The position numbers and the translations under genes are program-made. The notes under the pieces were generated by a model. That model saw nothing but the letters and a program-made list of their open reading frames with translations, was not told where the DNA came from and ran no database searches. From an uncultured OM43 clade bacterium (GTDB taxonomy: Bacteria > Pseudomonadota > Gammaproteobacteria > Burkholderiales > Methylophilaceae), in the NCBI GenBank assembly GCA_902558495.1, contig CACEEB010000009.1, positions 1 to 42,191 on the forward strand: a DNA stretch of 42,191 bases, written 5' to 3'. Below are positions 2,696-36,071 of the stretch, in pieces (the first letter of the stretch is position 1; each line of letters starts with the position of its first letter).

Positions 2696-3562
2696 TTGTT
2701 ATCAAGAATATCATTAGGAAGTGCACAATTCGGCCTGGATTATGGCATTGCGAACTCAACTGGAAAAGTTAAAAAAAGTGAATTAAGACTTATTTTCAAA
2801 AAGGCCTTACATTGCGGGATAAATACAATAGATACTGCTATTGATTATGAGGACAGTGAATCTAATATTGGTGATTTGAAACCAATAAAATTTAATATTG
2901 TTACAAAACTCCCTAAGGTACCCAGCAATTGTATCAATATAGGTGACTGGGTAAAGGATAATGTAAGCAATTCTTTAAAAAAGTTAAATGTTCCCTCATT
3001 ATATGGAATATTACTTCACCGTCCTTTTGATATAAAAAAATACAAAGATTTGTATAATGAATTGAACAAAATAAAGGAAAGCGGTGCTGTTAAAAAAATT
3101 GGTATTTCAATATATTCTCCATCTGAATTAGACGATCTTCTTCCTACATATCAATTTGATCTTATACAGACACCTTTAAATATTTTTGACAGAAGGATTG
3201 TCGATTCAGGTTGGCTGAGAAGACTTTCTGACCTGGGAATAGAAATACATACAAGATCATGTTTTCTTCAAGGGTTACTTTTGTTGAAAAAGCACGAAAG
3301 GCCTTTATTTTTTGATAGGTGGAGTAATATTTTTGATAAATGGGATTCTTTCCTTCTTGAAAGTAATAATGATCCGGTTGGGGTATGCTTAAAATATCCG
3401 CTTTCATTTAAGTCAATAAATCGTGTAATTATTGGTGTGGATGGTTATAAACAGTTTAATCAAATTCTTCATAATGTAGATAATATTAATGAATTATCAA
3501 CTCCTAACATAAAAGCTAATGATTATAAATTGATTAATCCTTCGGAATGGGTTTTCAAATGA
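2696..3562 (+). CDS. Aldo/keto reductase of nonulosonate cluster
   Basis: Aldo/keto reductase superfamily protein of 288 residues with a TTG start two bases after the pseC stop. The N-terminus is LGSAQFGLDYGIAN, a form common in AKRs from polysaccharide loci. The catalytic tetrad is complete: Asp46, Tyr51 (five residues on, as in the family), Lys71 and His108 in LLHRP. The C-terminal segment RVIIGVDGYKQFNQI matches the cofactor-binding end of the barrel. AKRs of this subtype often sit between pseC and pseF in nonulosonate loci, where their substrate is not settled; a sugar or keto-sugar reduction is plausible. The stop overlaps the next gene as ATGA. The superfamily is certain and the substrate unknown. 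Confidence 0.82.
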   Translation: MLSRISLGSAQFGLDYGIANSTGKVKKSELRLIFKKALHCGINTIDTAIDYEDSESNIGDLKPIKFNIVTKLPKVPSNCINIGDWVKDNVSNSLKKLNVPSLYGILLHRPFDIKKYKDLYNELNKIKESGAVKKIGISIYSPSELDDLLPTYQFDLIQTPLNIFDRRIVDSGWLRRLSDLGIEIHTRSCFLQGLLLLKKHERPLFFDRWSNIFDKWDSFLLESNNDPVGVCLKYPLSFKSINRVIIGVDGYKQFNQILHNVDNINELSTPNIKANDYKLINPSEWVFK

Positions 3563-5580
3563 GCATTATTGCAATTGTGCAGGCTAGAATGGGATCAACT
3601 AGACTTAAAGCAAAGGTCTTAAGAAAGATTAATGGAGTACCGTTAATTAAATTACTTTTATTAAGATTAAGTAAATCAACTTTACTCGATAAGATAATAG
3701 TTGCTACGACTTCTAATAAAGAAGATATTGAATTAAAAAACTATGTAGAAAGCATTGGGTATGATTGTGAAATTGGTAGTGAAAAAAATGTAATGGACAG
3801 GTACATAAAAGTAGGCGTTATGAATAAAGCAAAAATTATAGTAAGAATTACAGGAGACTGTCCATTAATAGACCCACAAATAGTAGATAAAGTTATAAGT
3901 GAATTTACATCAAGAGAATTTGACTATGTTAGTAATATTTCTCCACCTACATTTCCAGATGGACTAGATGTTGAGGTTTTTAAATTATCATCTCTTATTG
4001 AAGCATCAAATCAAACTTCAAAATTATATGATTTAGAGCATGTGACGCCTTACTTTAGAGATTCAGGATACTATACAACTTATAATATTAAGAATAAAAA
4101 AGATTATTCGCACATAAGACTTACCGTTGATGAACTTATTGATTTAAATGTAATAAAAAATATTTTTACTTATTTTCATCCGAATTATTATTTTAGTTGG
4201 ACGGACATAATAGATTTGCATAAAAAAGAACCTAATTTATTTACTAATCATAATCTTCAAAGAAATGAAGGGGCAAATATGGGATCAGGACAAAAATTGT
4301 GGAAAAGGGCAAAAGAAATTATTCCAGGTGGAAATATGCTTTTATCAAAACGTCCAGAAATGTTTCTTCCGGATGAATGGCCATCTTATTTTTCTAAGGC
4401 AAAAGGTTGTAAAGTATGGGATTTAGACGGTGTTTCATACACTGATATGTCCATAATGGGTATTGGTACAAATATTCTTGGCTATGCAAATGAGGAGGTA
4501 GATCAAGAGGTTGTTAACACCGTAAAATCAAGCAATATGTCAACATTAAACTGCCCTGAAGAAGTGTATTTAGTAGAAAAACTAATTGAGATGCATCCTT
4601 GGGCAGATATGGGAAGGCTTGCAAGGTCTGGAGGAGAAGCTAATGCCATTGCAATAAGAATTGCTAGAGCAGCTAGCAAAAATGATAATGTAGCAATTTG
4701 TGGATACCATGGGTGGCATGACTGGTATTTAGCAGCAAATCTTAAAAAAGATGAACTAGGAAGTCATCTAATACCTGGATTAGAACCAAATGGGGTTCCT
4801 GAGAACCTAAGAGATACAGTATATCCTTTTAAATATAATTGTTTTGAGGAGCTTGAGGATTTAGTAAATACTAAGAATATTGGCATAATAAAAATGGAAG
4901 TTTTGAGAGGAGAGTCCCCAAAAAATAATTTCTTAAAAAAGGTAAGAGATTTAGCAACAAAAAAAAATATTATTTTAATTTTTGATGAATGCACTTCAGG
5001 CTTTAGAGAAACATTTGGTGGAATACATAAGAAGTTTGAAGTTGATCCAGATATGGCTATGTTTGGTAAGGCAATGGGTAATGGGTATGCTATTACAGCA
5101 GTTATAGGTAAAAAAGAGATAATGCAGTCGGCACAATCTTCATTTATAAGTAGTACATTTTGGACTGAAAGAATAGGCCCTACAGCCGCATTAAAAACGA
5201 TAGAAATAATGAATAGAGAAAAAACATGGGAATACATTACTAGATTGGGTTTATATATCAGAGATTGTTGGCAATTATTAGCAGACAAACATGGTTTAGA
5301 AATTTCAGTTTGGGGTATACCTTCATTATCTGGCTTTAATATAAAATCAACAAAATTTCTTGAATATAAAACTTTTATAACTCAAGAGATGTTGAAAAAT
5401 GGATTCTTAGCGGGAAATTGTATTTATGTATGTAAAAGTCATAATAAGAAGATTGTTGACGAGTATATGTATTATTTAGATTCTATTTTTAAAATATTAA
5501 GAGAGTGTGAGGATGGTAGGGATATTAACAAATTATTGAAAAATTCTATTTGTCATAGTGGTTTTAAGCGTTTAAATTAA
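3559..5580 (+). CDS. SpsF/PseF-like cytidylyltransferase fused to class III (GSA-type) aminotransferase
   Basis: Two-domain protein of 673 residues. Residues 1-235 are a nucleotidyltransferase of the SpsF/CMP-sugar synthetase type: QARMGSTRLKAKVL at 8-21 is the nucleotide-binding loop, and TGDCPLIDP (98-106) and DGLDVEV (134-140) are further landmarks. Residues 242-650 form a glutamate-1-semialdehyde-aminomutase-like aminotransferase with YHGWHD (383-388), the PLP-ring Asp476 in FDECTSGFR, and the Schiff-base Lys504 in FGKAMGNGY. In related loci the first domain activates the nonulosonate with CMP (the PseF role), so I infer that here. The aminotransferase may aminate a sugar or aldehyde intermediate. 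The start at 3559 gives an ATGA overlap with the previous stop; an in-frame ATG at 3547 is less likely. The domains are clear and the joint function is inferred. Confidence 0.85.
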   Translation: MSIIAIVQARMGSTRLKAKVLRKINGVPLIKLLLLRLSKSTLLDKIIVATTSNKEDIELKNYVESIGYDCEIGSEKNVMDRYIKVGVMNKAKIIVRITGDCPLIDPQIVDKVISEFTSREFDYVSNISPPTFPDGLDVEVFKLSSLIEASNQTSKLYDLEHVTPYFRDSGYYTTYNIKNKKDYSHIRLTVDELIDLNVIKNIFTYFHPNYYFSWTDIIDLHKKEPNLFTNHNLQRNEGANMGSGQKLWKRAKEIIPGGNMLLSKRPEMFLPDEWPSYFSKAKGCKVWDLDGVSYTDMSIMGIGTNILGYANEEVDQEVVNTVKSSNMSTLNCPEEVYLVEKLIEMHPWADMGRLARSGGEANAIAIRIARAASKNDNVAICGYHGWHDWYLAANLKKDELGSHLIPGLEPNGVPENLRDTVYPFKYNCFEELEDLVNTKNIGIIKMEVLRGESPKNNFLKKVRDLATKKNIILIFDECTSGFRETFGGIHKKFEVDPDMAMFGKAMGNGYAITAVIGKKEIMQSAQSSFISSTFWTERIGPTAALKTIEIMNREKTWEYITRLGLYIRDCWQLLADKHGLEISVWGIPSLSGFNIKSTKFLEYKTFITQEMLKNGFLAGNCIYVCKSHNKKIVDEYMYYLDSIFKILRECEDGRDINKLLKNSICHSGFKRLN

Positions 5581-6225
5581 ATGAGAATATTTCTTTTAGT
5601 AAGTTCAAAAGAACATCCAATCATTCCAATGCTTAATGAATGGAAAAAGAATAACAGTTTAGGTAAACAAATAAAAATAATTAATCATAAAAAGGATTTG
5701 GTAAAGGGCGATATTTTATTTTTGATTTCATGCAATGAAATTCTTAATAGTAGTGAAATTAAAAAATTTAAAAAAGTTTTTGTTCTTCATGCAAGCGATT
5801 TACCAAAAGGTAGGGGTTGGTCCCCACACATTCACAGCATTCTTAATAATAAAAATGAGATAACTGTAAGTCTAATCGAAGCAAATAAAGAAGTTGATAA
5901 AGGTGATATTTGGCTTAAAGATAAATTCCAATTAGAGGGACATGAGTTATTTAATGAAATTAATGAAATTTTATTTAGAACAGAGCTTAATTTGATGTCA
6001 AAACTCATAAATAATATTGAGCAAATAATTCCAATCAAGCAATCAGGAAATCCAGGAAAATATAACAAAAAAAGAACTCCTAAAGACAGTGAATTGAATC
6101 CAAACAAATCTATTGCTAGCCAGTTTAATTTACTTAGAATTTCAGATCCAAAAAGATTCCCAGCATTTATTAAGTTAAATAACCATAAATACCTTATTAA
6201 TATTGAAAAAATTGATGATAAATAA
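5581..6225 (+). CDS. Formyltransferase-like protein of nonulosonate cluster
   Basis: A 214-residue protein starting directly after the preceding stop (TAA then ATG). It carries a formyltransferase core, LHASDLPKGRGWSPH at 69-83, followed by a segment ending in EVDKGDIW (104-111). These match the His-x-Ser-x-Leu-Pro...Gly and Asp-x-Gly motifs of methionyl-tRNA and sugar N-formyltransferases. His70 and Asp106 would be the catalytic pair. The Asn that normally lies two residues before the His is Val68 here, which is odd. It is too short for a tRNA formyltransferase with its C-terminal domain. In this setting it probably acylates an amino sugar, for example the C4 amine made by PseC, using N10-formyl-tetrahydrofolate. 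The role is inferred from position and motif. Confidence 0.75.
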   Translation: MRIFLLVSSKEHPIIPMLNEWKKNNSLGKQIKIINHKKDLVKGDILFLISCNEILNSSEIKKFKKVFVLHASDLPKGRGWSPHIHSILNNKNEITVSLIEANKEVDKGDIWLKDKFQLEGHELFNEINEILFRTELNLMSKLINNIEQIIPIKQSGNPGKYNKKRTPKDSELNPNKSIASQFNLLRISDPKRFPAFIKLNNHKYLINIEKIDDK

Positions 6226-6237: not shown

Positions 6238-6429
6238 ATGAATGATATTAATCAAAAATTAAAACTAATTGATGAAATAGAAAAAATTCGAACCCAAAAT
6301 AATATCAATTGGATGGACTTGCTGAGAGTAGCTTTTAAACACGCACCAGATGAGACTAAAGTACTTGTAAGAAAAATAAATAAAGATGATAAAAGGATAT
6401 CTGAAATTTTTGCAAAACTAGGCGAATGA
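6238..6429 (+). CDS. Small conserved companion protein of PseI (63 aa)
   Basis: A 63-codon gene between the formyltransferase-like gene and pseI. An AGGAAA-type ribosome-binding site lies just upstream of the ATG, and the stop is shared with the pseI start as ATGA. The protein is charged and helical-looking: an N-terminal helix with alternating Lys/Ile/Glu, then INWMDLLRVAFKHAPDE, then a basic segment ending DDKRISEIFAKL. From memory, very similar short proteins with an N-WMD-LR-A pattern are found next to pseI/neuB-type genes in other loci, but I know of no assigned function. There is no signal peptide, membrane segment or metal motif. Good translation signals and tight coupling argue that it is real. 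Confidence 0.75.
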   Translation: MNDINQKLKLIDEIEKIRTQNNINWMDLLRVAFKHAPDETKVLVRKINKDDKRISEIFAKLGE

Positions 6430-7484
6430 AGATGCAAAATATTAAATTAGAAAATAAATTGATTGGATCAAATAAAAAGCCATTTATTATTGCAGAAATG
6501 TCAGGAAACCATAATCAATCATTAGAGCGTGCTTTAGAAATAGTAAGAGCTGTTGCAGAAACTGGTGCTGATGCCTTAAAGCTTCAAACTTATACTGCGG
6601 ACACAATGACTCTGGATCATGAAGGATCAGATTTTAAAATTTCGGATTCAAATAGCCTGTGGAAAGGTAAATCACTTTATGAATTATATGGTGAAGCTCA
6701 TACACCATGGGATTGGCATAAGCCAATTTTTGAGCTTGGAAGGAGCTTAGGTTTAATAGTATTTAGCTCTCCCTTTGACTCTACTTCAGTTGATTTTTTA
6801 GAAACATTAAATGTTCCATGCTATAAGATAGCCTCTTTTGAAATAACTGATTTATCATTAATTGAGTATGTTGCTAGTAAGAAAAAACCTATGATTATGT
6901 CAACTGGTATGGCAACTAATAATGAAATTAGGGATGCTGTAAATGCAGCAACTTCAAATGGTTGTTCAGAATTGATATTACTTAAATGTACCAGCGCATA
7001 TCCAGCTACTGCAGAAGATGCAAATTTAAATACCATTGTAGATATCAAAAAAAACTTTAATTGTAATGTTGGTTTGTCAGACCATACAAAAGGAATTGGA
7101 GTTGCTGTGGCTAGTATTGTTTTAGGAGCGTCTGTAATAGAAAAACACTTTACTCTAGATAGAAACGATGGAGGTGTAGATAGTGAATTTTCTATGGAGC
7201 CAGATGAAATGAAGCAATTAGTTGATGAAACCCAAAAAGCATGGTCTTCATTGGGAGACGTCTCATACGGACCAACTAAATCTGAAGAAAATTCTCTTAG
7301 ATTTAGAAGGTCACTATACATTGTAAAAGATTTACAAACGGGCGATATATTGTCAGAACAAAATATTAAATCAATACGTCCAGGATATGGAATAGCTCCA
7401 AAATATCTTAAAGATATTATAGGAAAAAAAGTCACTAAAAATATAAAAAAAGGGACAGCATTTAATTGGAAGCTAATTAGATAA
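6426..7484 (+). CDS. pseI: Pseudaminic acid synthase, PseI (NeuB family)
   Basis: Condenses a 6-carbon 2,4-diamino-2,4,6-trideoxy sugar with phosphoenolpyruvate to make the nine-carbon nonulosonate. The 352-residue protein has the NeuB TIM barrel (about 1-280) and a C-terminal SAF/antifreeze-like domain (about 290-352, with SLYIVKDLQTGDILSE). Barrel landmarks are IIAEMSGNHNQS (21-32), FSSPFDSTSVDFLE (113-126), STGMATNNEI (159-168) and the metal ligands His220 (SDHTKG) and His241 (EKHFTLDR). The 21-residue spacing equals that of the Mn-binding histidines in NeuB. The E-M-SGNHN and D-GGVDSEFSM forms favour PseI over LegI/NeuB. Its ATG overlaps the small-gene stop as ATGA. Confidence 0.92.
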   Translation: MKMQNIKLENKLIGSNKKPFIIAEMSGNHNQSLERALEIVRAVAETGADALKLQTYTADTMTLDHEGSDFKISDSNSLWKGKSLYELYGEAHTPWDWHKPIFELGRSLGLIVFSSPFDSTSVDFLETLNVPCYKIASFEITDLSLIEYVASKKKPMIMSTGMATNNEIRDAVNAATSNGCSELILLKCTSAYPATAEDANLNTIVDIKKNFNCNVGLSDHTKGIGVAVASIVLGASVIEKHFTLDRNDGGVDSEFSMEPDEMKQLVDETQKAWSSLGDVSYGPTKSEENSLRFRRSLYIVKDLQTGDILSEQNIKSIRPGYGIAPKYLKDIIGKKVTKNIKKGTAFNWKLIR

Positions 7485-8552
7485 ATGGACACTAATAAAA
7501 GCCCCAAGATACTAGATTGTACTCTAAGAGACGGAAGTTATGCTATTAACTTTACTTTTTCTGAGAGCGACACTCAAGAAATATCAAGTAATATTGATAA
7601 ATTAAACATTCCTTATATAGAGGTAGGTCATGGTGTTGGTCTAGGAGCGAATAGGCTTGGAGTAAATTTTTCATCTGCAACTGACATTGCATATATGAGA
7701 GCAGCAAAAACATCAGTTAAGCAGGGCAAATGGGGTATGTTTTGTATACCAGGTATAGCTAATCTTGATGATGTTAAGCTTGCTTGTGATCATGGTATTC
7801 AATTTATAAGAATAGGAAGCAACATAGATCAAATTGAGGACTCAAAAAAATTTATAGAGCTTGCAAGAAATTTGGGCATTGAGGTTTTTGCAAACTTTAT
7901 GAAATCTTATACTCAAACACCTAAAAAATTTGCCAAGTTAATGAAACAATCCTATGAATATGGTTCGGAGTTAATATATTTAGTTGATTCAGCAGGGGGT
8001 ATGCTTCCTAAAGAATTGATTGAATATATATATGAGGCAAATAATTTAGAACCTAAGATTCCTCTTGGTTTTCACGGTCACAATAATCTTGGTCTAGCTA
8101 TGGCGAACGCTTTGATTTGTGCAGAGCAGGGTGTAGATATTATTGATTCTTCTTTTCAGGGTTTAGGAAGAAGTTCTGGGAATGTTCCAACTGAACAATT
8201 AATTTGTGCATTGCATAGAGCAAATTATGAGATAGAAATAGATCCTATAGAAGCAATGCATTTTGGTGAAACTTACATAAGGCCAAGAATAAAAAATAAA
8301 GGGCATTGCTCTCTAGATGTAATGGCTGGATACGCACAATTTCATTCAAGTTATATGCCGGATATATTGGATATTGCTAGGGAATTCAACGTTGATCCCA
8401 GAGAGATTATTCACCAATTATGTAAGATTGATAAACTTAATGCACCCAAAAATCTTATAAGGGATATTGCAGGAAAAATTGAAAAAAATAAGTTTTCCTT
8501 AGACATGGAGCCTCCATGGAATAATTATTTTGGTAATGAGCAAGATTTTTAA
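7485..8552 (+). CDS. DRE-TIM metallolyase, 4-hydroxy-2-oxovalerate aldolase-like (MhpE/DmpG type)
   Basis: HMGL-like TIM-barrel protein of 355 residues that follows pseI directly (TAA then ATG). LDCTLRDGSY at 10-19 holds the Arg-Asp catalytic pair and the Asp metal ligand. His197 and His199 in GFHGHNNLG are the other metal ligands, and the following GLAMANAL helix is typical. Known relatives cleave or form 4-hydroxy-2-oxo acids from pyruvate and an aldehyde. The usual partner, acetaldehyde dehydrogenase DmpF, is absent, so aromatic degradation is not the job. Such aldolases occur in nonulosonate and O-antigen loci. Here it probably supplies a carbon skeleton, either for the acyl group handled by the next genes or for an unusual sugar. 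The family is firm and the reaction open. Confidence 0.8.
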   Translation: MDTNKSPKILDCTLRDGSYAINFTFSESDTQEISSNIDKLNIPYIEVGHGVGLGANRLGVNFSSATDIAYMRAAKTSVKQGKWGMFCIPGIANLDDVKLACDHGIQFIRIGSNIDQIEDSKKFIELARNLGIEVFANFMKSYTQTPKKFAKLMKQSYEYGSELIYLVDSAGGMLPKELIEYIYEANNLEPKIPLGFHGHNNLGLAMANALICAEQGVDIIDSSFQGLGRSSGNVPTEQLICALHRANYEIEIDPIEAMHFGETYIRPRIKNKGHCSLDVMAGYAQFHSSYMPDILDIAREFNVDPREIIHQLCKIDKLNAPKNLIRDIAGKIEKNKFSLDMEPPWNNYFGNEQDF

Positions 8553-9967
8553 TGAATGCCTCAAATATACTAAACAAAGTTTTTAAAGAGCGCTGGAATT
8601 CTGAGGGGCTAGTTGTAAATAATCGAAGTTTTTTATATAAAGATATTTATCAAAAAGCATTAGCAATAAAATTACACCTCAACAAACTCGGCTGTAATGA
8701 AGGGGATAAATTAATTCTTAAACTTCCAAATGGATCAGTATTTTTCCATAGCTATCTTGCCTCTATTATTGGAGGATTTACATTTATTCCTATAAATATC
8801 GATACAACCGATGATAATTTTTTATTAATTAAAAATAAAGTAAATCCAAAGCTTATTATTGACGATGAAAAAATACTAGGAGATTTAAAAACTTTTTCAG
8901 TTAGATATCCTGACTTTAATTATCCTATCAATCAAGATGCTGGAATTTTTTTTACCTCAGGGACTACAGGCTCACCCAAAGGCGTTGCACATACATTAAA
9001 CAATTTGGTTTTAAATGCAATTTCTTTTAATAGCATGATGGGTATTGAAGATACCTGTCGTTTATATCATATTTTTCCAATGTCATATATGGCAGGTTTT
9101 CTTAACTCTATATTGTTGCCAATAGTATCTGGAGGAACTGTAATTCTAGGAAACCAATTTAATGCAATGAATGTATTTGGGTTTTGGGATGACATACTGC
9201 ATAAGAAAATTAACACCCTTTGGCTAAGCCCAACTATGGCATATATGTTAACAAAAATAAATCGTGATAAAAATATAAAAGAGAAAATTAAAGACAAGTT
9301 ATCCAATATATTTTCTGCAACTGCACCATTGCAGACTCATATAAAAAAATCATTTTATGAGACATTTGGATATTATCTGCAAAATAGTTATGGCATGTCA
9401 GAATTACTACTTGTCTCTGCACAAAACATGCATGAAGCAGGATCAAACGAAACCTCTGGTACTATGCTCCCAGAGATTTTAAGTAAAACAGAATTTAATA
9501 AGCAATCTAATAGTCATGAGTTATTAATTAAAACTCCTTTTATGTTAAGTAATTATTTTATGTCTGATGAGGTAAATTATATAGACAGTAAAGGATATTT
9601 TATAACGGGTGATATTGCAAAAGTTGATGATAAAAAATTAGATATTACTGGCCGTATTAAGGATATTATTATTCGAGGTGGAATAAATATTTCACCTAGA
9701 GAAATTGAAAGGGTAATCTATAACAACAAAATTGTGAAAGAGGTTTTTGTAATAGGACAACCTGATGAATTTTGGGGTGAAATAATAATTGTGTTTCTAT
9801 CAATTAATCTATCTTGTGATGTTAAAAAAGTAAAAAAAGAGATAAATAAAATTTGTAAAAGCAATTTACCTTCATCCATGATGCCGGACAAGTTTATTTA
9901 TGTTGATAATTTACCAAAAACATTATCAGGTAAAATAGAACGTAGGAAATTAGTAGAATTTTTATAA
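8552..9967 (+). CDS. AMP-dependent acyl-CoA/acyl-ACP ligase (ANL superfamily)
   Basis: Adenylate-forming enzyme of 471 residues that overlaps the aldolase stop by one base (TAATG). Core motifs are in order: the ATP loop FTSGTTGSPKG (134-144), YGMSE (280-284), TGD (352-354), the hinge GRIKDIIIRGG (367-377), and the C-terminal catalytic Lys461 in LSGKIERRKL. It is slightly short for an acyl-CoA synthetase (usually 500-550), mainly in the N-terminal part, but no motif is missing. It would activate a small carboxylic acid as the acyl-AMP and pass it to CoA or, given the acyl carrier protein at 12641, to the phosphopantetheine arm of that carrier. The substrate cannot be read from the sequence; a short polar acid is likely from context. 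Confidence 0.85.
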   Translation: MNASNILNKVFKERWNSEGLVVNNRSFLYKDIYQKALAIKLHLNKLGCNEGDKLILKLPNGSVFFHSYLASIIGGFTFIPINIDTTDDNFLLIKNKVNPKLIIDDEKILGDLKTFSVRYPDFNYPINQDAGIFFTSGTTGSPKGVAHTLNNLVLNAISFNSMMGIEDTCRLYHIFPMSYMAGFLNSILLPIVSGGTVILGNQFNAMNVFGFWDDILHKKINTLWLSPTMAYMLTKINRDKNIKEKIKDKLSNIFSATAPLQTHIKKSFYETFGYYLQNSYGMSELLLVSAQNMHEAGSNETSGTMLPEILSKTEFNKQSNSHELLIKTPFMLSNYFMSDEVNYIDSKGYFITGDIAKVDDKKLDITGRIKDIIIRGGINISPREIERVIYNNKIVKEVFVIGQPDEFWGEIIIVFLSINLSCDVKKVKKEINKICKSNLPSSMMPDKFIYVDNLPKTLSGKIERRKLVEFL

Positions 9968-9990
9968 TTAGATGATTGCTGAGGAAGTTT

Positions 9991-10668
9991 ATGGCTAAAA
10001 AAATTATTGATTTGACAATGAGTATTAAGGAGGGGATGCAGACTTTTCCAACGTATTGGCATCCATTTGTTGAAATAACTCAGTTAGGTAGACATGGTAT
10101 TGAGAATAGAGAAACGAGGAAGTTAGTTCTGGGAACCCATACTGGCACCCATATGGACGCTCCTAGGCATTTTATTAAAGATGGTAAATGTATTGACCAA
10201 ATTTCTTTAGATCAGCTTGTGGGACCTGCTTCGGTAATTGATTTATCATCATTTGAAGCTTTTAGTGAGATTCAGAAGGTGGATCTTGAAGAACGTTTGG
10301 GCGATAGACCATGTGAGCGTGTATTACTTCGATATGATTGGGATAAAATGCTTGGGTCAATGAAATATTTTAATGAGACACCATTCATGTCTGAGGAGGC
10401 TGCTCAATGGCTTGTAGATAAAGGATGTGTGCTTGTTTGTATGGATACTCCAATGCCTGATAATCCTAAAAATGGAAAAGGAAGTGATAACGACTCCCCA
10501 ATACATAAAATTTTACTAGGTAATAATGTCATCATATGTGAGTATTTAATCAATTTATCTAAATTATCTCAACCAATTGTAGATATATATATCGCACCAT
10601 TAAAAATAAGTGAAGGTGATGGAGCCCCAGTAAGAGCATTTGCTATAGAGAATGATATTAAAAAATAA
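9991..10668 (+). CDS. Cyclase-family (kynurenine formamidase-like) metal-dependent hydrolase
   Basis: Protein of 225 residues with the PF04199 cyclase fold signature HTGTHMDAPRHF at 50-61, which provides the metal-binding His and Asp residues. The N-terminus IIDLTMSIKEGMQTFP is also characteristic. Relatives hydrolyse formyl-kynurenine, isatin or cyclic imides and lactams. Its role in a glycan cluster is not established; hydrolysis of an amide, formyl or lactone intermediate in the acyl module is an inference. I chose the ATG at 9991 because a GAGGAAG ribosome-binding site sits at 9981-9987; a TTG at 9976 would place that site inside the gene. The 23-base gap from the ligase gene is one of the larger gaps in this part of the operon. 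Confidence 0.8.
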   Translation: MAKKIIDLTMSIKEGMQTFPTYWHPFVEITQLGRHGIENRETRKLVLGTHTGTHMDAPRHFIKDGKCIDQISLDQLVGPASVIDLSSFEAFSEIQKVDLEERLGDRPCERVLLRYDWDKMLGSMKYFNETPFMSEEAAQWLVDKGCVLVCMDTPMPDNPKNGKGSDNDSPIHKILLGNNVIICEYLINLSKLSQPIVDIYIAPLKISEGDGAPVRAFAIENDIKK

Positions 10669-10672
10669 ATCA

Positions 10673-11863
10673 ATGGATTCAAATAGTAAAAAAAAAGAAA
10701 ATCCTATTTATTTCCTTAACAATGATTGCATCATTAGTATTAAAGACGAAATACCCATAATTTCAAATCCTAGATTAAGAATACATATTGAACCAGATAT
10801 TTCCTTAATAGTAATTCTTTTGCAAAATTCAAAGGGCTTGCATAAAGAAGAATGGAAGGAAAATTTAAAAAATCATAAAGCTAAAAATAGAACTAACAGA
10901 TTAATTGGCAGCAATGGTTTGGTTGGGGATCATTCTGGTTTTAGCAAAAAATTATCAACGAGATTGTATAGCGGGGAACAGCTTTTTGATTTATTGGTTG
11001 ATGAAGCAATTTTGATAAAAGAAAAAAAAGATGCAGAAATGAGGTGTAGTAAATTAGATAGTTTATTTGATCAAAAGAATCTTGGTACATTTCATGAAAG
11101 AGTTGGACAATATGTATTGCTTGGATTAAAAGAAAAAGAACCATGGCGAGCATGGCAGAACCAAAAGTTTACAAAAAATGGTAAAGAGTTGATTGGCAAT
11201 AATTATAAACAAATTCAGAAACCCTTTTTTGACAATTTTTTTAAAAACAAAAATATAAATGGATTAAGTATTCTTGACTTTGGATGTGGCAATGGATATT
11301 TCAGTAATAAGCTTGCTGATTTAGGTGCAAATGTAACTGCAATGGATATGTCAAAAGAATTATTAAATTTAGGTATAAAAAATTATAAAAAGAATACGTC
11401 TAAATTAAATTTCTTATTGGTTAGCGACATAAATAATACAATTAGCACACTAAAAAAAATAAAAAGAAATTCAGTTGATATAATTTATTTACAAGACACA
11501 TTACTGTTGTTAATGAATCCTGAAAATGGCCTAAAGAACAAAGATTTACATAAGCTAATATCTACATTTAAAGAGATACTGTCAGACGATGGTGAAATAT
11601 TTGCTATGGAGCCTAATGCAATATTTTGGCTTTCTAGTAGATACGGTGACGACGCAAAACCCTTTACTATCATTACGGAATATAGGAACCAAGTATTTAA
11701 TGTGGTACCAACTATTGGGGAATTTATTTCACTTTTCTCCAATGCTGGATTTGGTTTGTCAAGCTTATGTCACCCTCCACACACTGATAATAAGCATGAA
11801 GATTTTGCTTATATAAATGAATTCCCTGTATGGGATTTTATGACTTTTAAAAAGTTAAAATAA
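10673..11863 (+). CDS. Class I SAM-dependent methyltransferase with extra N-terminal region
   Basis: About 396 residues. The C-terminal half is a Rossmann methyltransferase: motif I is LDFGCGNGYF at about 201-210, then an acidic residue in VTAMDMSKELL, and a motif-III-like IYLQDTLLLL segment. The first about 190 residues do not match a family I recognise and may bind the substrate or the acyl carrier. In an acyl-decoration module the enzyme probably O-methylates the acyl group or the sugar. C. jejuni carries a methyltransferase (Cj1300) in the comparable region. An in-frame ATG at 10652 would overlap the previous gene by 17 bases; neither start has a strong ribosome-binding site, and 10673 lies four bases after the preceding stop. 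Confidence 0.78.
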   Translation: MDSNSKKKENPIYFLNNDCIISIKDEIPIISNPRLRIHIEPDISLIVILLQNSKGLHKEEWKENLKNHKAKNRTNRLIGSNGLVGDHSGFSKKLSTRLYSGEQLFDLLVDEAILIKEKKDAEMRCSKLDSLFDQKNLGTFHERVGQYVLLGLKEKEPWRAWQNQKFTKNGKELIGNNYKQIQKPFFDNFFKNKNINGLSILDFGCGNGYFSNKLADLGANVTAMDMSKELLNLGIKNYKKNTSKLNFLLVSDINNTISTLKKIKRNSVDIIYLQDTLLLLMNPENGLKNKDLHKLISTFKEILSDDGEIFAMEPNAIFWLSSRYGDDAKPFTIITEYRNQVFNVVPTIGEFISLFSNAGFGLSSLCHPPHTDNKHEDFAYINEFPVWDFMTFKKLK

Positions 11864-12637
11864 TTGATTGATAAAAAAATATTAATTCAAGAATTTGATA
11901 AAGTTTTAGGGAATGATGAGCGTCCTATTGTCATCTTTTCTTCAATATGGCCTTTCTTTAAATCATTAAATTCATCCAATAATGAAACTTTAGATTTAAT
12001 ATTAGAATCTTTTATGATTTCTGCGAAAAATAGATTGGTAATGATGCCATCTTTTACAAAAGGCTTCATAAATGGAGTATGTAATTTAGATAAAGCAAAG
12101 AGCTTGAATGGTTTATTTTCAGAAAGATTTAGGGAAAAGTATAGTACCGTAAGATCACGTAGTGCCTTTTTTTCTTTCTCTGCTTGTGGGGAGTATGCTG
12201 AACAAATTCTGTCCTTAAAGCCTAAGAATGCATGGGGAAAAAATTCAATTTATGAATGGATGGAGTTATGTAATGCTAGGATGTTGATGCTAGGTACTCA
12301 CAGCACACACTGTAGCTATTTACACAGGATTGAATGGTTTAATAAAGAAAGAATTATTTATAGGGAAAATAAAACTTTTAAAGGCTATTTAAAAATTAAT
12401 AATGAATTAATAGAAAGTCAGGAGACATTATTTGTGAGAAAGAGTAATCCTGAGGCAATAAACGATTTTTCCCACCTTAAAAAATATTTAACAGAGGCAG
12501 GTATGCAATCATTTAAAATACTAGAGGTTCCAGTATTTCTATATGACGTTTCTTTAATTACTGACAGCATTATGCCGGTCTTTAAAAAAGATCCTTTAAA
12601 TGCACTTGTAAATAGGAAAGACTTCTTAGAGGCATAA
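11864..12637 (+). CDS. AAC(3)-family (Antibiotic_NAT fold) N-acyltransferase
   Basis: Protein of 257 residues with a TTG start abutting the previous stop. Features of the aminoglycoside 3-N-acetyltransferase family (PF02522) can be seen: LVMMPSFTKG (58-67), FSERFREKYSTVRSRS (85-100), the short loop SFSACGEYA (104-112), and THSTHCSYLHRIE (145-157) with His154 and Glu157 in the catalytic position. Members in glycan clusters acylate amino sugars and do not confer drug resistance. With an acyl ligase upstream and a carrier protein immediately downstream, I infer that it transfers the activated acyl group to an amine of the nonulosonate or its precursor. It is slightly shorter than AAC(3) enzymes at the C-terminus. 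Family confidence is good; donor and acceptor are inferred. Confidence 0.78.
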   Translation: MIDKKILIQEFDKVLGNDERPIVIFSSIWPFFKSLNSSNNETLDLILESFMISAKNRLVMMPSFTKGFINGVCNLDKAKSLNGLFSERFREKYSTVRSRSAFFSFSACGEYAEQILSLKPKNAWGKNSIYEWMELCNARMLMLGTHSTHCSYLHRIEWFNKERIIYRENKTFKGYLKINNELIESQETLFVRKSNPEAINDFSHLKKYLTEAGMQSFKILEVPVFLYDVSLITDSIMPVFKKDPLNALVNRKDFLEA

Positions 12638-12640
12638 ATT

Positions 12641-12892
12641 ATGTGTCAAAAAAACAAAATTATGAAGCTAATAAATACGATAATTGAGGATTCTAGTGAT
12701 TCTATTTCTTCAACAGCAATTGATTTATTTGAGGAAGAATTAATAGATTCATTTGCTATTGTTGAAATAGTTACATCACTTGAAAAGCTATTTAGTATTG
12801 ATATACCCTTTGAAGAGATGACTATCCAAAACTTTAGGTCAATAGACGCTATCGATTTTTTAATAAGTAAGATACAAAAAAATAATGAATAA
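12641..12892 (+). CDS. Acyl carrier protein
   Basis: An 83-residue acidic four-helix carrier protein. The phosphopantetheine site is Ser37 in EEELIDSFAIVEIV, followed by the typical helix and the ENF-like FEEMTIQNFRSIDAI segment. The ATG at 12641 is preceded by AGAGG at 12628-12632 with 8-base spacing. A second in-frame ATG at 12662 (76 residues) has no such site, so I prefer the first. It is a stand-alone carrier, distinct from a fatty-acid AcpP by sequence (DSF rather than DSL) and by context. It would hold the acyl unit loaded by the ligase at 8552 for use by the methyltransferase and the AAC(3)-type transferase. It overlaps the next gene by 8 bases. Confidence 0.88.
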   Translation: MCQKNKIMKLINTIIEDSSDSISSTAIDLFEEELIDSFAIVEIVTSLEKLFSIDIPFEEMTIQNFRSIDAIDFLISKIQKNNE

Positions 12893-14159
12893 ATTTCTTC
12901 ATAAATGGGCTAGTGACTTATTTCCAATTAATAGAAGCATTACTGGCAAGGGAGTCCGAGATACATTATCCTATATTAAAGATATTATCCCGAATCTAAA
13001 TGTTTATAGTATTCCCTCAGGAAAAAGAGTTTTTGATTGGGTTATTCCTAACGAGTGGGAAATAAACGAGGCATTTATTGAGGATCAAAATGGTAATAGA
13101 GTAATAGATTTTGCAAATAATAACTTGCATGTTGTGGGGTATTCAGAGCCTGTTGATAAATGGATTGATATTGATGAACTGAATAATTATTTACATTCAA
13201 TACCTGAACAACCAAACGCAATACCATATGTCACCTCATATTATAATAAAACGTGGGGTTTTTGCCTAAGCGAAAATCAAAGATCTAAATTAAAAGACAA
13301 AAAATATCATGCAGTCATTAGGTCAAAGCTTAAAAAAGGTTTTTTAAATTATGGTGAACTAATAATTCCCGGCAAATCAAAAAAAGAAATTTTGTTATCT
13401 ACCTATATTTGTCACCCTTCAATGGCAAATAATGAAGTTTCTGGTCCGGTTGTAACAGCTGCGATTGCTAAGGAATTGGAACAAAATAAACTTAACTATA
13501 CTATTAGGATAGTTTTTATACCGGAAACAATTGGATCCATAGCATATTTGTTTGATCATTATCAAGCATTAAAAAAAATGGTCATAGCTGGATTTAATAT
13601 AACTTGCGTTGGTGACAATAATTGTTATTCATACCTTCCATCTAGAGATGGTAATTCAATATCTGATAAGGCAGCACTTCACGCTTTAAAACATGTTGAC
13701 TCAAACTTTATAAAATATTCATGGTTAGACAGAGGTAGTGATGAAAGACAGTATTGTGCTCCTGGTATAGATTTACCAATCGCTTCGATATTAAGAAGTA
13801 AGTACGGCGAGTATCCCGAATACCATACTTCTTTAGACGATTTAAGCTTTATATCTGAAGATGGCTTACAAGAGAGCGTAGATATTTATATCAAAGTTAT
13901 TAAAATTATTAACGAAAATTACACTCCTAAGCCTTTAATTTTATGTGAGCCTAATATGGGTAAAAGAGGCTTATATAGTCTAATTAGCAAGCAAAATAGC
14001 AATACAAAGGGCGTAATAGATATGATGAATATTATTTCACTATGTGATGGTGTTAATACAATTTTAGATATTTCTGAAGAAATTAATTTACCTTTTTGGG
14101 ATGTTAATGAAATTATTAAAGTTCTTATTAAGGAAAATATAGTCAGTCCTTTCAAATAG
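12885..14159 (+). CDS. DUF4910 (DUF2172) aminopeptidase-fold protein with C-terminal winged helix
   Basis: Protein of 424 residues, M28-like zinc-peptidase fold. The N-terminus LHKWASDLFPINRSITGKGV is diagnostic for the DUF4910 family. Likely metal and catalytic residues lie in STYICHPSMANNEVSGP (His177, Glu184 region), FIPETIGS (about 215-222) and PEYHTSLDDL (about 329-338). The last about 60 residues (MMNIISLCDGVNTILDIS onward) look like the winged-helix tail of this family. A relative, C. jejuni Cj1295, is required for addition of a di-O-methylglyceric acid group to flagellin pseudaminic acid, so despite the peptidase fold a role in acyl-group formation or attachment is the best guess. The start overlaps the acyl carrier gene by 8 bases. 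Confidence 0.82.
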   Translation: MNKFLHKWASDLFPINRSITGKGVRDTLSYIKDIIPNLNVYSIPSGKRVFDWVIPNEWEINEAFIEDQNGNRVIDFANNNLHVVGYSEPVDKWIDIDELNNYLHSIPEQPNAIPYVTSYYNKTWGFCLSENQRSKLKDKKYHAVIRSKLKKGFLNYGELIIPGKSKKEILLSTYICHPSMANNEVSGPVVTAAIAKELEQNKLNYTIRIVFIPETIGSIAYLFDHYQALKKMVIAGFNITCVGDNNCYSYLPSRDGNSISDKAALHALKHVDSNFIKYSWLDRGSDERQYCAPGIDLPIASILRSKYGEYPEYHTSLDDLSFISEDGLQESVDIYIKVIKIINENYTPKPLILCEPNMGKRGLYSLISKQNSNTKGVIDMMNIISLCDGVNTILDISEEINLPFWDVNEIIKVLIKENIVSPFK

Positions 14160-14168: not shown

Positions 14169-15914
14169 ATGAAATCAAAGAAATTATTCGTAGTACCCTC
14201 CGCTTACGATAAATCGTTAAAATTAGACGAACCTTTACTTTTCTTAGGAACATGGTGTTTTCCTACAGAAAAAAAAGAATTATTGTTAAATTTGGATTAT
14301 AAAATACTTAAACCAATAATTTTTGAAAACCACATAAAAGATAAACAGCATAAAAATATTAGAATTTTTCAAGAAAAATTATTAAATATTTTAGTTGTTA
14401 TTTTAAACAATCAACACAACGTAAAATTTTCAAAAAAATCATGGAATATATTAATTGGTCATTGGCTTAGAAGAGCAACAGAAACAATGCTTAATAGGAT
14501 TTATATTGTAAAATCAAGCATAGAAAAGTTTCAGTTAAATGGAATATATTCTTTTGATAAATATGATCTATCTGTTGAGGATCCAAGAAGCTTTATTTAT
14601 GCTGCTGGAGATAACAAGTGGAATTCAGCACTAATTAGTAGAATATATCGATTCTATATAAAGGATTCTGATTTTTTTCAGTCAAATGATAGTGTTAGTA
14701 ACAGTTTTTACTTAGAAGAAAAAGATCTATCAAAATTAAAAGCTACAGCAAGTAAAATTTTAAAAGTTTTTTCAAAGAAAAAAGATGCTTTTATGATTAG
14801 TACCTACCTTAATTTTTTTGATAATTTTTTTTTAAATTTATCGTTAGGCCAAATTCCTCAGATACCCATAACACCAAAGCTATACAATAGAAATAAAACC
14901 GATATTTTATTGAGAAAAAAATTAAAAGAAATTCTTTTGAAGAATAAAGATAGTTCACAATTTAACAAGGATCAAAAGATTCTATGTAGTTTAATTTTTG
15001 AAATTATGCCAAGAAATTATTTAGAAGATTTTAATTTAATGGAAAAGACCGTTGATAATATTGGATGGCCATCAAAACCAAATTTTATATTTACCTCAAA
15101 TGAATTTGATACAAATGATATTTTTAAATTATGGACTATTAAAAAAATGCAAAAAGGTACTAAATATTATGTTGGTCAGCATGGAAATAATTATGGTACA
15201 AATAAGTATGTTAAGGATACTGTAGAGGAATTAACAGCTGATAAGTTCATCACATGGGGTTGGACAGCTAATGGAAAACAATATAAAAAAGGATTTATCT
15301 TTCGAAATAAAAAAATAAAAAATAAAGTTAATAATGGGCATTTACTAATGATTGAAAACACGACCAATCATAAAATATCTATATGGGACCAAGATATTGA
15401 TTTTTTGAATCATCTGAAGAATCAATCTAAATTAATTAAAAATTTAAATTTCGCTCCCAAGAAAAATCTTTTAATAAGACTCCATAATGAACACAATAAA
15501 ATGCATTTGAATGAGAAATCTATTATTTTAAAAAACAATCCTGATGTAAATATTGATGATGGGTTGACTGATATTTATAGTTTGTTTTCCAAGTCTAAGC
15601 TTATTCTACATAATTATGACTCAACAGGACTTCTTCAGACATTGGCTAATAATAAACCTTCATTGGCTTTTTTTAGTAATGGTTTTGATCATATTCGGGA
15701 AGAGGCTATTCCATATTATGAGTTGTTAATAAATTCTGGAATCATACATTTTGACTATCTTTCACTAGCAAATAAAATTAATTCTGTATGGGATGATGTT
15801 GATAGTTGGTGGAGTGATAAGTCAGTTCAAGAGAATATAAGACAATTTTGTCATAATTACGCAAGAGTAGTCGATAGTAATAAGAATGAAATTAAAAGAA
15901 TTCTAACTAGTTAA
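14169..15914 (+). CDS. LIC12162-family putative transferase
   Basis: A large protein of 581 residues. The opening (KLFVVPSAYDKSLKLDEPLLFLGTWC, read in two parts: a short strand and then FLGTWC at about 26-31) is the mark of the LIC12162 family first noted in Leptospira O-antigen loci. A central WPSKPNFIFTSNEFDTND and the GQHGNNYGT segment (about 337-345), plus HNYDSTGLLQTLANNKPS near the C-terminus, look like a GT-B nucleotide-sugar site. It may transfer the CMP-activated nonulosonate; many nonulosonate clusters contain this family. There is no signal or membrane segment. The family call is fairly firm and the biochemical role is inferred. Confidence 0.78.
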   Translation: MKSKKLFVVPSAYDKSLKLDEPLLFLGTWCFPTEKKELLLNLDYKILKPIIFENHIKDKQHKNIRIFQEKLLNILVVILNNQHNVKFSKKSWNILIGHWLRRATETMLNRIYIVKSSIEKFQLNGIYSFDKYDLSVEDPRSFIYAAGDNKWNSALISRIYRFYIKDSDFFQSNDSVSNSFYLEEKDLSKLKATASKILKVFSKKKDAFMISTYLNFFDNFFLNLSLGQIPQIPITPKLYNRNKTDILLRKKLKEILLKNKDSSQFNKDQKILCSLIFEIMPRNYLEDFNLMEKTVDNIGWPSKPNFIFTSNEFDTNDIFKLWTIKKMQKGTKYYVGQHGNNYGTNKYVKDTVEELTADKFITWGWTANGKQYKKGFIFRNKKIKNKVNNGHLLMIENTTNHKISIWDQDIDFLNHLKNQSKLIKNLNFAPKKNLLIRLHNEHNKMHLNEKSIILKNNPDVNIDDGLTDIYSLFSKSKLILHNYDSTGLLQTLANNKPSLAFFSNGFDHIREEAIPYYELLINSGIIHFDYLSLANKINSVWDDVDSWWSDKSVQENIRQFCHNYARVVDSNKNEIKRILTS

Positions 15915-16957: not shown

Positions 16958-18037
16958 ATGAATACAATTGATTTAAAGCTAAAAAAATATTTTAAAGGAA
17001 AGAAAGTTTTTATTACTGGTCATACTGGTTTTAAGGGTTCTTGGCTATCTTATTTACTTCATAAAGTAGGTGCTGAGGTAATGGGGTACGCCCTAAAACC
17101 AAAAAGTGATAATGATCATTTCTGTTTACTCAATTTACAAGAAAAAATAAATCATGTTGAAGGTGATATAACAGATTCAGAACATCTAAATAAAAAAATA
17201 ATTAACTTTCAACCTGACTATGTTTTTCATTTAGCTGCTCAAGCTCTTGTTCATTATTCGTATGCTAATCCATTCGAGACTTATTCCGTAAATGTTATGG
17301 GTTCATTAAATCTTTTAGATGCTGTAAAAAATACATCATCAATAAGATCATTAATTTATGTTACTTCTGATAAATGTTATGAAAATATTGAAATAAACAG
17401 AGGTTATCATGAAGAAGATACTCTTGGTGGACAGGATCCTTATAGTTCTTCTAAAGCTGCTGCTGAAATTTTATTTTCTTCATACTATCGTTCCTTTTTA
17501 TCAGACAAGAATAGTCTGGGAGCAGCATCAGTAAGAGCAGGAAATGTAATTGGTGGAGGTGATTGGTCTGCAAATCGAATAATCCCCGACTGTATAAAAG
17601 CTATTGAAAAAGATATACCTATTTTATTAAGACATCCTAATGCAACAAGGCCATGGCAACACGTTCTAGAACCTTTATCAGGATATTTATTACTAGCTAG
17701 TAAGCTTTATGATAATCCATCAAAATTTTATGGATCTTGGAATTTTGGGCCATCACATAATGACTCAATCACTGTTAAACAAATAGCTTCATTGATAATT
17801 GAAAATTTAGGTAAAGGTACAATTGAAATTCAAGAGCCTGAGAAGAACATCCATGAAGCTAAATTACTTCAATTAAATTGCACCAAGGCAAAAAAATTAC
17901 TTAATTGGCATTCAAGGTGGGATTCAAAAAAAACCTTACAGTCGACTGCCGACTGGTATAAAAGTATAATGAATGGTGAAAAAGCTGAGGATATTACCTT
18001 TAAACAAATTTGCGAATTCTTCCCGGAGATAAAATGA
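16958..18037 (+). CDS. rfbG: CDP-glucose 4,6-dehydratase
   Basis: Extended SDR of 359 residues that removes water from CDP-glucose to give CDP-4-keto-6-deoxyglucose. The NAD motif is GHTGFKGSWL (21-30), where the lysine-containing form is typical of RfbG/DdhB. T136-S137-D138-K139 and Tyr162-Lys166 (PYSSSKAAAE) form the active site. NVIGGGDWSANRIIPD and HPNATRPWQHVLEPL are near-signature stretches for the family. With rfbF at 18513 it makes up the first two steps of a CDP-6-deoxyhexose branch. There is a 15-base gap from the upstream GT gene, and the stop overlaps the next start as ATGA. Confidence 0.93.
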   Translation: MNTIDLKLKKYFKGKKVFITGHTGFKGSWLSYLLHKVGAEVMGYALKPKSDNDHFCLLNLQEKINHVEGDITDSEHLNKKIINFQPDYVFHLAAQALVHYSYANPFETYSVNVMGSLNLLDAVKNTSSIRSLIYVTSDKCYENIEINRGYHEEDTLGGQDPYSSSKAAAEILFSSYYRSFLSDKNSLGAASVRAGNVIGGGDWSANRIIPDCIKAIEKDIPILLRHPNATRPWQHVLEPLSGYLLLASKLYDNPSKFYGSWNFGPSHNDSITVKQIASLIIENLGKGTIEIQEPEKNIHEAKLLQLNCTKAKKLLNWHSRWDSKKTLQSTADWYKSIMNGEKAEDITFKQICEFFPEIK

Positions 18038-18483
18038 TTGATGGCGTTATATTAACCCCCTTGAAACAGATATTTGATGAGCGTGGCAAAGTTATGCATA
18101 TGCTTAGAGAGGATTCTCCAATTTTCTCGAGATTTGGTGAAATATACTTTTCATGTACTAATCCCGGAGCAGTTAAAGCTTGGCATCTTCACAAGGAATT
18201 AACACTAAACTATGCCGTAATTTATGGCCAAATAAAATTTGTACTTTATGATGAGAGAAAAGATAGTCCAACATGCGGTGAGATCCAAGAACTTTTTATG
18301 TCGCCTGAAAATTATTTTTTGGTAACTGTTCCCCCAGGAATATGGAATGGGTTTAAGAGTGTTGGTAATTTAACTTCAATTCTTGCAAATTGTGCAACCT
18401 TACCTCACAGTCAAAATGAAATTATGAGAAGACCTGCAAATGATAAAAAAATCCCATACAAATGGGAGCTAGAACATCGTTAA
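18034..18483 (+). CDS. RmlC-like cupin sugar-nucleotide epimerase
   Basis: Small cupin of 149 residues related to dTDP-4-dehydrorhamnose 3,5-epimerase. GAVKAWHLHKELTLNYAV (45-62) holds the His51-His53-Lys54 cluster at the cupin active site, and FGEIYFS and YGQIKFVLYDER are core strands. PPGIWNGFK later in the chain is the conserved RmlC-type loop. Located between rfbG and rfbF, it probably epimerises C3 and/or C5 of the CDP-4-keto-6-deoxy sugar rather than a dTDP sugar; no rmlA, rmlB or rmlD is present. The start at 18034 forms an ATGA overlap; an upstream in-frame TTG at 18010 is unlikely. The fold is certain; the positions epimerised are unknown. Confidence 0.83.
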   Translation: MIDGVILTPLKQIFDERGKVMHMLREDSPIFSRFGEIYFSCTNPGAVKAWHLHKELTLNYAVIYGQIKFVLYDERKDSPTCGEIQELFMSPENYFLVTVPPGIWNGFKSVGNLTSILANCATLPHSQNEIMRRPANDKKIPYKWELEHR

Positions 18484-18512
18484 TTTAAATAAAAAAATAA
18501 GGTTATAAAACT

Positions 18513-19280: not shown

Positions 19281-19284
19281 AATA

Positions 19285-25616: not shown

Positions 25617-25627
25617 TTATTCATTCT
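25606..25627 (+). terminator. AT-rich inverted repeat, possible weak terminator or attenuator
   Basis: AGAATGA at 25606-25612 and TCATTCT at 25621-25627 are perfect 7-base inverted arms around an 8-base loop, spanning the PglC-type stop codon. No clean run of T follows at once, so it would be a weak intrinsic terminator at best. The 64 bases to the next gene hold no other clear signal. Confidence 0.25.
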
Positions 25628-25680
25628 CCTTATTCGCTAATATATTTTTGTTTTTGAATACAACTTTTATTTAATAAAAC

Positions 25681-31318: not shown

Positions 31319-31319
31319 T

Positions 31320-36063: not shown

Positions 36064-36071
36064 GTTAATTT

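Follow-up and report, generated by a model that had tools for sequence, protein, structure and literature searches.

The stretch analysed here, hereafter the window, is the 42,191-nucleotide contig CACEEB010000009.1 of an uncultured OM43 clade bacterium (Methylophilaceae), contig 9 of a 0.9-Mb bin that is 64% complete. The system in question is a set of seven genes that directly follows pseI, the gene for pseudaminic acid synthase. These genes encode a DRE-TIM aldolase (ALD), an adenylate-forming acyl ligase (ANL), a cyclase-family metal hydrolase (CYC), a methyltransferase (MT) that uses S-adenosylmethionine (SAM), an AAC(3)-fold acyltransferase (AAC), an acyl carrier protein (ACP) and a DUF4910 protein. 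All seven are on the plus strand, and neighbours abut, overlap or are at most 8 bases apart. The initial annotation had described seven consecutive, tightly coupled genes at this place; open reading frames (ORFs) and family scans confirm both their positions and their family names, and the best Pfam matches of all seven are above the cut-offs (Table 1). For CYC, inspection of the translation indicates that the start may be an in-frame ATG at 9991 instead of the TTG at 9976.

The window also has genes of the pseudaminic acid pathway: the PseI protein exceeds the cut-off of its equivalog family and the PseB and PseC families are present. Downstream of the module are a LIC12162-family transferase and glycosyltransferases, and further dehydratase, epimerase and aminotransferase genes occur at 16958-26889.

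Table 1. Genes of the pseudaminic acid cluster and of the adjoining seven-gene module in the window.
Feature	Coordinates	Strand	Family evidence
pseB-like	545-1534	+	Polysacc_synt_2 317 bits
pseC-like	1527-2693	+	DegT_DnrJ_EryC1 330 bits
aldo/keto reductase	2696-3562	+	PF00248 88 bits
CMP-sugar transferase (PseF-like) fused to class III aminotransferase	3547-5580	+	PF02348 106 bits at 8-191; PF00202 131 bits at 281-624
formyltransferase-like	5581-6225	+	PF00551 30.1 bits, cut-off 26.1
pseI, pseudaminic acid synthase	6426-7484	+	TIGR03586 517.6 bits, cut-off 340.25
ALD, DRE-TIM aldolase	7485-8552	+	HMGL-like 128 bits; NF006049 271 bits, cut-off 229
ANL, adenylate-forming acyl ligase	8552-9967	+	AMP-binding PF00501 127 bits; AMP-binding_C PF13193 57 bits
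CYC, cyclase-family metal hydrolase	9976-10668	+	Cyclase PF04199 108 bits; motif HTGTHMDAPRH
MT, SAM methyltransferase	10652-11863	+	Methyltransf_31 44 bits; fold-level assignment only
AAC, AAC(3)-fold acyltransferase	11864-12637	+	Antibiotic_NAT PF02522 63.6 bits, cut-off 25
ACP, acyl carrier protein	12641-12892	+	PP-binding PF00550 22.1 bits, cut-off 20.8; Ser of DSF motif present
DUF4910 protein (Cj1295 type, aminopeptidase-like)	12885-14159	+	DUF4910 PF16254 325, DUF2172 128, HTH_47 74 bits; motif CHPSMANNEVSG
LIC12162-family transferase	14169-15914	+	TIGR04331 272.7 bits, cut-off 225; same position in L036

The genome_contigs collection (one genome per species, 84,980 species) was scanned with a four-sequence aldolase profile, which yielded 63 loci, designated by L numbers below. 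The scan found loci via two short peptide patterns and kept a flank of up to 10 kb per side, many contigs ending sooner. Neighbours within 10 kb of the aldolase were counted with per-family profiles built in this analysis. L094, an ordinary HOA aldolase, was kept in the denominators, while L040, L044 and L045, which equal L003, L004 and L005 in length and score and are apparently duplicates of those contigs, were counted once among the 63 and twice in the residue table. ANL was found in 42 loci, CYC in 37, ACP in 34, AAC in 25, and the DUF4910 protein, a VOC-fold protein and a PseI-profile match in 24 each; a methyltransferase of the window type was found in 5. ANL and CYC occurred jointly in 37 of the 63 loci, and all six of ALD, ANL, CYC, ACP, AAC and DUF4910 in 20. 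In 33/63 loci, the series ALD-ANL-CYC, with or without the VOC gene before CYC, ran along one strand with gaps below 1.5 kb and with no other profiled gene in between.

The control comprised 20 stretches of 19.5 kb that surround ordinary HOA aldolases in genomes of the same phylum. One of them contained ANL, a different one CYC, two PseB and two PseC; none of the 20 had the ANL and CYC pair, and none had VOC, ACP, AAC, DUF4910 or PseI. Comparison of the 63 loci with the 20 controls by Fisher's test, which treats related loci as independent, gave p = 8e-7 for ANL with CYC and p = 0.0005 for PseI. The conserved co-occurrence with pseI anticipated in the initial annotation is therefore borne out for six of the families, as 12 of the 20 complete loci have a PseI-profile match within 10 kb. 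The metagenome-assembled genome (MAG) of a Nitrosomonadaceae bacterium, L036, presents the gene order of the window from pseI through the LIC12162 gene, plus one extra methyltransferase-like gene after CYC.

The 63 loci, many of them from MAGs, span Pseudomonadota, Acidobacteriota, Cyanobacteriota, Nitrospirota, Myxococcota, Elusimicrobiota, Lentisphaerota and other phyla. Of 398 sampled genomes from the phylum of the window, 38 had an aldolase match at E <= 1e-20, and only the window's own genome and three others reached the window-type score level (at least 358 bits, against at most about 178 for the rest). The window-type aldolase is scattered and uncommon. A search of plasmids with ALD (E 1e-60) and CYC (E 1e-40) gave no match.

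The link to pseudaminic acid is also seen in the type and position of the synthase. TIGR03586 was matched at E <= 1e-102, about its cut-off, by 17 of the 18 synthases scanned, which came from loci with PseI matches and included that of the window. The gene that immediately follows PseI is ALD in the window as well as in L036, L037, L038, L039, L046, L060 and L097. Sixteen genomes with ALD, ANL and CYC but no neighbouring PseI were searched whole, and eight of them have a PseI above the curated cut-off, compared with 1/14 control genomes. Among the eight six-gene genomes without an adjacent PseI, five pass the cut-off elsewhere, two are just below it (331.5 and 330.7 vs 340.25 bits) and one, L042, is far below (238.5).

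The most tightly linked block is ALD-ANL-(VOC)-CYC. Similarity matrices of its members are correlated with that of ALD (rho 0.62 for ANL, 0.54 for VOC and 0.46 for CYC), as are those of AAC (0.47), PseI (0.38) and ACP (0.38), none of the 300 permutations being as high in any of these cases. DUF4910 and PseI similarities are correlated with a rho of 0.61 (13 loci; 8/300 permutations as high). Both the linkage and the matrices place the aldolase and the cyclase in the core, and MT is peripheral. The initial annotation had taken the aldolase and cyclase for extras and methylation for one step of its scheme; the 33 consecutive blocks and the correlated similarities reverse the former view, and with a window-type MT in 5/63 loci, methylation by this enzyme is not a core step. 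Its idea that all parts fit one scheme holds as far as the six-gene association with pseI, while MT falls outside the core and the VOC-fold partner of 24/63 loci was missing from that scheme.

The VOC-fold protein has about 210 residues, and its gene is usually located between ANL and CYC (L060:12397-13014, L041:3617-4237). The L041 protein passes the Pfam Glyoxalase family weakly (23.6 vs cut-off 20.6), and the L060 protein has no Pfam match. The AlphaFold model of the former (pLDDT 96.1) resembles glyoxalase- and dioxygenase-type structures, such as GLOD4 (TM 0.69), and 24 sequences all share His7, Glu68 and Glu200. The gene was not found in the genomes of the window or of L036; the search that covered L036 did recover it in its source genome, L041, and in that of L060. 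The loci with MT, ANL, CYC and AAC, namely the window, L036, L042 and L046, are all without VOC. L047, in which MT, AAC and ACP are present and neither ANL nor CYC is matched, carries VOC along with MT.

ALD is related to DmpG by structure, with differences at its active site. The AlphaFold model (pLDDT 93.2) has DmpG, 1nvm, as its best match in the PDB (TM 0.86, 28% identity), and ALD retains Arg17 and the metal ligands Asp18, His200 and His202 of DmpG, which are R15, D16, H197 and H199 in the window. At the positions of DmpG His21 and Tyr291, however, ALD has Tyr19 and His287. We take His21 and Tyr291 to be catalytic in enzymes of the DmpG type. This exchange is present in all 64 rows of the window type that can be read at both positions (61 distinct; L093 and L098 give a reading for one position only), and neither position was part of the retrieval patterns. 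In contrast, all 28 HOA rows (26 sampled, L094 and DmpG) have His21, and position 291 is Tyr in 23, Phe in 3, Val in 1 and Cys in 1. At the first exchanged site, Tyr is also seen in 3dxi, a putative aldolase of Bacteroides.

The score of ALD is below the cut-off of the HOA equivalog TIGR03217 (242.3 vs 286) and above that of the broader NF006049. DmpG also differs in its aldehyde dehydrogenase partner: a Pfam scan of 30 window proteins, which left out the ORFs of 30180-33255 and 33761-40886, gave no acylating aldehyde dehydrogenase. In the aldolase tree, with a midpoint root used for drawing only, a branch with 100/100 support separates the six HOA rows included from the other sequences. The identification of ALD as an ordinary HOA aldolase lying beside a sugar cluster was rejected on the basis of this split and of the exchanged active-site residues.

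The window groups in the tree (99/94) with a Roseobacter genome and with MAGs assigned to Nitrosomonadaceae (one), Chlorobiaceae (one) and Pseudomonadota (three). This grouping of mixed taxa suggests that the aldolase was transferred laterally, provided that the bins are correct. The presence of ANL with CYC is clustered on the aldolase tree (0/500 shuffles as low) and requires 11 changes, which indicates repeated gain or loss.

Window-type aldolases were also observed in other surroundings. In the Acidobacteriota loci L079, L081-L085 and L087, the aldolases have 628-781 residues with a C-terminal extension and are followed by ANL, CYC and an ACP-profile match; AAC and DUF4910 were not found in the flanks of these seven loci. 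An assignment of the extension as a 2-hydroxyacid dehydrogenase was not used, as L071 scored 22.4 bits, below the cut-off of 25.1; L066 gave weak matches to other families only, and L077, L082 and L086 gave none. In L053, L066, L071, L073, L074, L077 and L086, an aldolase with the exchanged residues lies near members of a protein cluster represented in L073 by an ATP-grasp ligase. Some of these loci also have nearby a cluster represented in L074 by a protein with weak resemblance to amidohydrolases. They perhaps represent another route for attaching the same kind of acid. In Streptomyces katrae (L092:2886-6564), the aldolase with exchanged residues adjoins a helix-turn-helix (HTH) regulator and a gene of the fumarylacetoacetate-hydrolase family; related clusters occur in other actinomycete loci, and this aldolase likely belongs to a different pathway. 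An aminotransferase class I/II gene is located between the aldolase and the ligase in L046 (11071-12261), a position that would fit transamination of a 2-oxo acid.

By sequence, the nearest solved structures to CYC are a metal-dependent hydrolase, 8hmo, and the kynurenine formamidase 4co9. CYC shares the cyclase family and the metal motif with kynurenine formamidase and isatin hydrolase, but its score is far below the cut-off of the arylformamidase equivalog TIGR03035 (85 vs 223), and an assignment as KynB was rejected. The AAC(3)-like protein was likewise rejected as an aminoglycoside resistance gene (NF033082, 27.1 vs cut-off 270), and phmmer gave no solved relative for it at E 0.01.

The DUF4910 protein is similar to the solved structure 3k9t (E 1e-101). 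Two main types of a motif are found in this family, NNELSG (Asn-Glu), as in the window, and NDNLSG (Asp-Asn), the pair found in 3k9t; five other sequences have neither. AAC is within 6 kb of 31/42 proteins of the Asn-Glu type versus 1/11 of the Asp-Asn type (Fisher p 0.00015), and when the window and the loci selected by the aldolase are excluded the values are 12/21 and 0/9. In M28 peptidases, the Asp at this motif position presumably bridges metals, and the metal site of the Asn-Glu type may therefore be altered.

DUF4910 and AAC proteins are also found together with other partners. A plasmid of Agrobacterium salinitolerans has pseB, pseC, pseF, pseG, pseI and pseH with AAC(3) and DUF4910 genes, an IS3 transposase lying between the last two, and no ALD, ANL, CYC or ACP match was found in that stretch. 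In the Maritalea myrionectae plasmid NZ_CP021332.1 (L120:9943-12402), AAC(3)-like and FkbH domains are in a single protein (FkbH 290 bits vs 146.65), followed by a reductase and then DUF4910. As in the window, the AAC(3)-like domain and a DUF4910 protein with NNELSG are beside pseB and a NeuB-family gene; unlike the window, the FkbH domain takes the place of aldolase, ligase and cyclase, the reductase intervenes, and the stretch has no ACP-profile match. With a profile built from the L120 domain alone, AAC, FkbH and DUF4910 were found together in L158, L159, L164 and L167, and no FkbH match was found within 6 kb of the DUF4910 gene of the window. L160, L161 and L168 present AAC and DUF4910 with an ANL-profile match and no ALD or CYC match.

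The closest known parallel is the Cj1295 region of Campylobacter jejuni, where we assume Cj1295 to be of the DUF4910 family and ACP and methyltransferase genes to be in the same region. Cj1295 is reported as an aminopeptidase-like protein encoded just downstream of the pseudaminic acid genes Cj1293 and Cj1294, and its loss removes the 5-N-dimethylglyceroyl (di-O-methylglyceroyl) group of pseudaminic acid (PMC3068675). The Discussion of that paper proposes that the 5-N-acetyl group is cleaved and the sugar then re-acylated (PMC3068675). For strain 12567, an aminoglycoside N3'-acetyltransferase gene is described within this locus (PMC6003734). C. jejuni also has a gene with an FkbH domain, cj1302, which is a pseudogene in strain 12664; this strain has no dimethylglyceroyl sugars, and neither has strain 12661, which is reportedly missing cj1301 instead (PMC7099621). 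The two regions would have in common a DUF4910-type protein and AAC(3)-like and ACP genes beside pse genes; they differ in the FkbH-domain gene of C. jejuni and in the aldolase, ANL ligase and cyclase of the window. The parallel with Cj1295 drawn in the initial annotation is thus sound for the effect of Cj1295 loss, and less so for the supply gene, which differs, and for AAC, where it is weak because the C. jejuni gene is a pseudogene in strain 11168.

Group II flagellar glycosylation islands of Aeromonas have ACP and AMP-dependent synthetase genes between pseudaminic acid genes, as in the window, together with 3-oxoacyl-ACP reductase, luxC and luxE, and the word aldolase is absent from the main text (PMC7874193). 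The article on Vibrionaceae nonulosonate clusters (PMC7371886) has no mention of aldolase, acyl carrier, CoA ligase, cyclase, formyltransferase or hydroxybutanoyl, and searches of openly licensed PMC papers gave no description of an aldolase-type acyl-supply unit among the ranked papers listed; in the best 20 of 87 matches of one search, neither DUF4910 nor DUF2172 is mentioned. N-acyl modification of pseudaminic acid with a Cj1295-type protein is known from C. jejuni, and the window differs in its acyl-supply unit.

From the gene content, co-occurrence, folds and motifs, we infer a series of biochemical steps and propose that the module replaces the N-acyl group of pseudaminic acid with an acid derived from an aldol reaction, a reading to which we give a probability of slightly under one half. 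ALD would condense the enolate of pyruvate with an aldehyde or ketone to a 4-hydroxy-2-oxo acid. CYC would open the lactone, lactam or amide (cyclic or N-acyl forms) of this acid or of a derivative, a role in opening or trimming suggested by its relation to amide- and lactam-opening hydrolases. The free acid would then be adenylated by ANL and loaded on ACP, presumably in parallel with DltA acting on DltC, and in the window MT would methylate the acid or the acyl-ACP. The DUF4910 protein, in the role proposed for Cj1295, would strip the sugar of its N-acetyl group at C5, and the AAC(3)-like enzyme would take the acyl group from ACP and attach it to the amine thus freed. That the acyl group could be a trimethyl-pyroglutamyl group made from a pyruvate dimer is speculation only.

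A wider formulation is put forward still more tentatively. The pathway would be phylogenetically broad but uncommon and probably laterally moving, and would yield a so far undescribed pseudaminic acid with a pyruvate aldol product, either a 4-hydroxy-2-oxo acid or a cyclised, methylated derivative, as the N-acyl group. The aldolases with exchanged His and Tyr would form a new subfamily, and DUF4910 and AAC(3) would be a common socket for aldolase, FkbH or ligase-only supply units.

Several observations weigh against the replacement of the N-acyl group by such an acid. ALD has no His at the position of DmpG His21, so that its reaction stays predicted, and the support for the putative CYC reaction is at the level of the fold. 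At the residue presumed to bridge the metals, the DUF4910 protein of the window carries Asn and 3k9t carries Asp. The similarities of ALD and DUF4910 (rho 0.13, 48/300 permutations as high), of AAC and DUF4910 (0.17, 36/300) and of AAC and PseI (0.26, 37/300) are not clearly correlated. The pair of ANL and CYC is missing near the aldolase in 26/63 loci; the 63 loci are non-independent, many being MAG contigs, and the ANL profile would also match unrelated ligases. A PseI-profile match within 10 kb is missing in 8/20 six-gene loci, and L048 and L061, two of the 12 positive ones, were outside the equivalog scan, which included the other 10. AAC is within 6 kb in only 9/29 sampled DUF4910 loci (the window's own excluded, some contigs being short), and the five FkbH loci show no ACP-profile match near DUF4910. 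The L036 protein found no PseG/PseH match in the window's genome, a search of an incomplete bin made without a positive control. Finally, C. jejuni 11168, which makes the dimethylglyceroyl sugar, has the aminoglycoside N3'-acetyltransferase gene as a pseudogene (PMC6003734), so another transferase must act there.

Some of these points would also suit an unlikely alternative, in which the acyl group goes onto a different amino sugar within the glycan, such as one made from the genes at 16958-26889, and pseI is a mere neighbour. The window does encode further sugar-nucleotide enzymes and a DegT aminotransferase, and to the eight six-gene loci without a nearby PseI is added the low best match of the L042 genome. 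This alternative is opposed by the position of ALD directly behind PseI in the window and seven other loci, by the PseI type of 17/18 synthases and by the presence of PseI elsewhere, above the cut-off in five and just below it in two of those eight genomes (controls 1/14). Moreover, Cj1295 is described as acting on pseudaminic acid (PMC3068675).

The acid may instead be made elsewhere, with ALD and CYC being catabolic (retro-aldol cleavage and hydrolysis) and recycling or trimming the acyl precursor, while ANL, ACP, AAC and DUF4910 alone build the sugar. Known HOA aldolases act in catabolism, and the three loci with DUF4910, AAC and an ANL-profile match lack ALD and CYC matches. On the other hand, ALD-ANL-[VOC]-CYC is the tightest block (33/63), and the 30 window proteins scanned include no aldehyde dehydrogenase, so we consider this explanation rather improbable. 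Polysaccharide loci reshuffle often, and both the rarity of MT and the 11 tree changes would agree with a chance gathering of seven unrelated tailoring genes in a gene-rich locus, yet this is very improbable, being already contradicted for six of the seven genes by the order kept in L036, by blocks conserved across several phyla against 0/20 controls with ANL and CYC, and by the clustering of these two on the tree.

The formyltransferase-like gene upstream of pseI occupies the place of a PseG-PseH protein in L036 and others, and in L037, L059 and L072 a homologue is located between a PseG-profile match and PseI; a 7-N-formyl sugar is possible, given this gene. The profile of the fusion of transferase and aminotransferase also matches other aldolase loci, such as L036, L039, L046 and L068, and the genes listed for the Aeromonas group I islands likewise include a class III aminotransferase and a keto reductase (PMC7874193).

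Taken together, the operon probably makes a small acid by means of an unusual aldolase and joins this acid to the surface sugar made by the neighbouring genes. The module predicts a class of chemistry and names enzymes that can be assayed, and the exchanged His/Tyr pair is a natural experiment on the catalysis of pyruvate aldolases. The RDGSY and FHSS exchange in the aldolase and NNELSG in the DUF4910 protein may serve as sequence marks for spotting such sugars in genomes. Many bacteria carry derivatives of pseudaminic acid as flagellar and surface sugars, and the recurrence of much of this gene set, scattered in distant bacteria, points to an undescribed way of decorating the cell surface.

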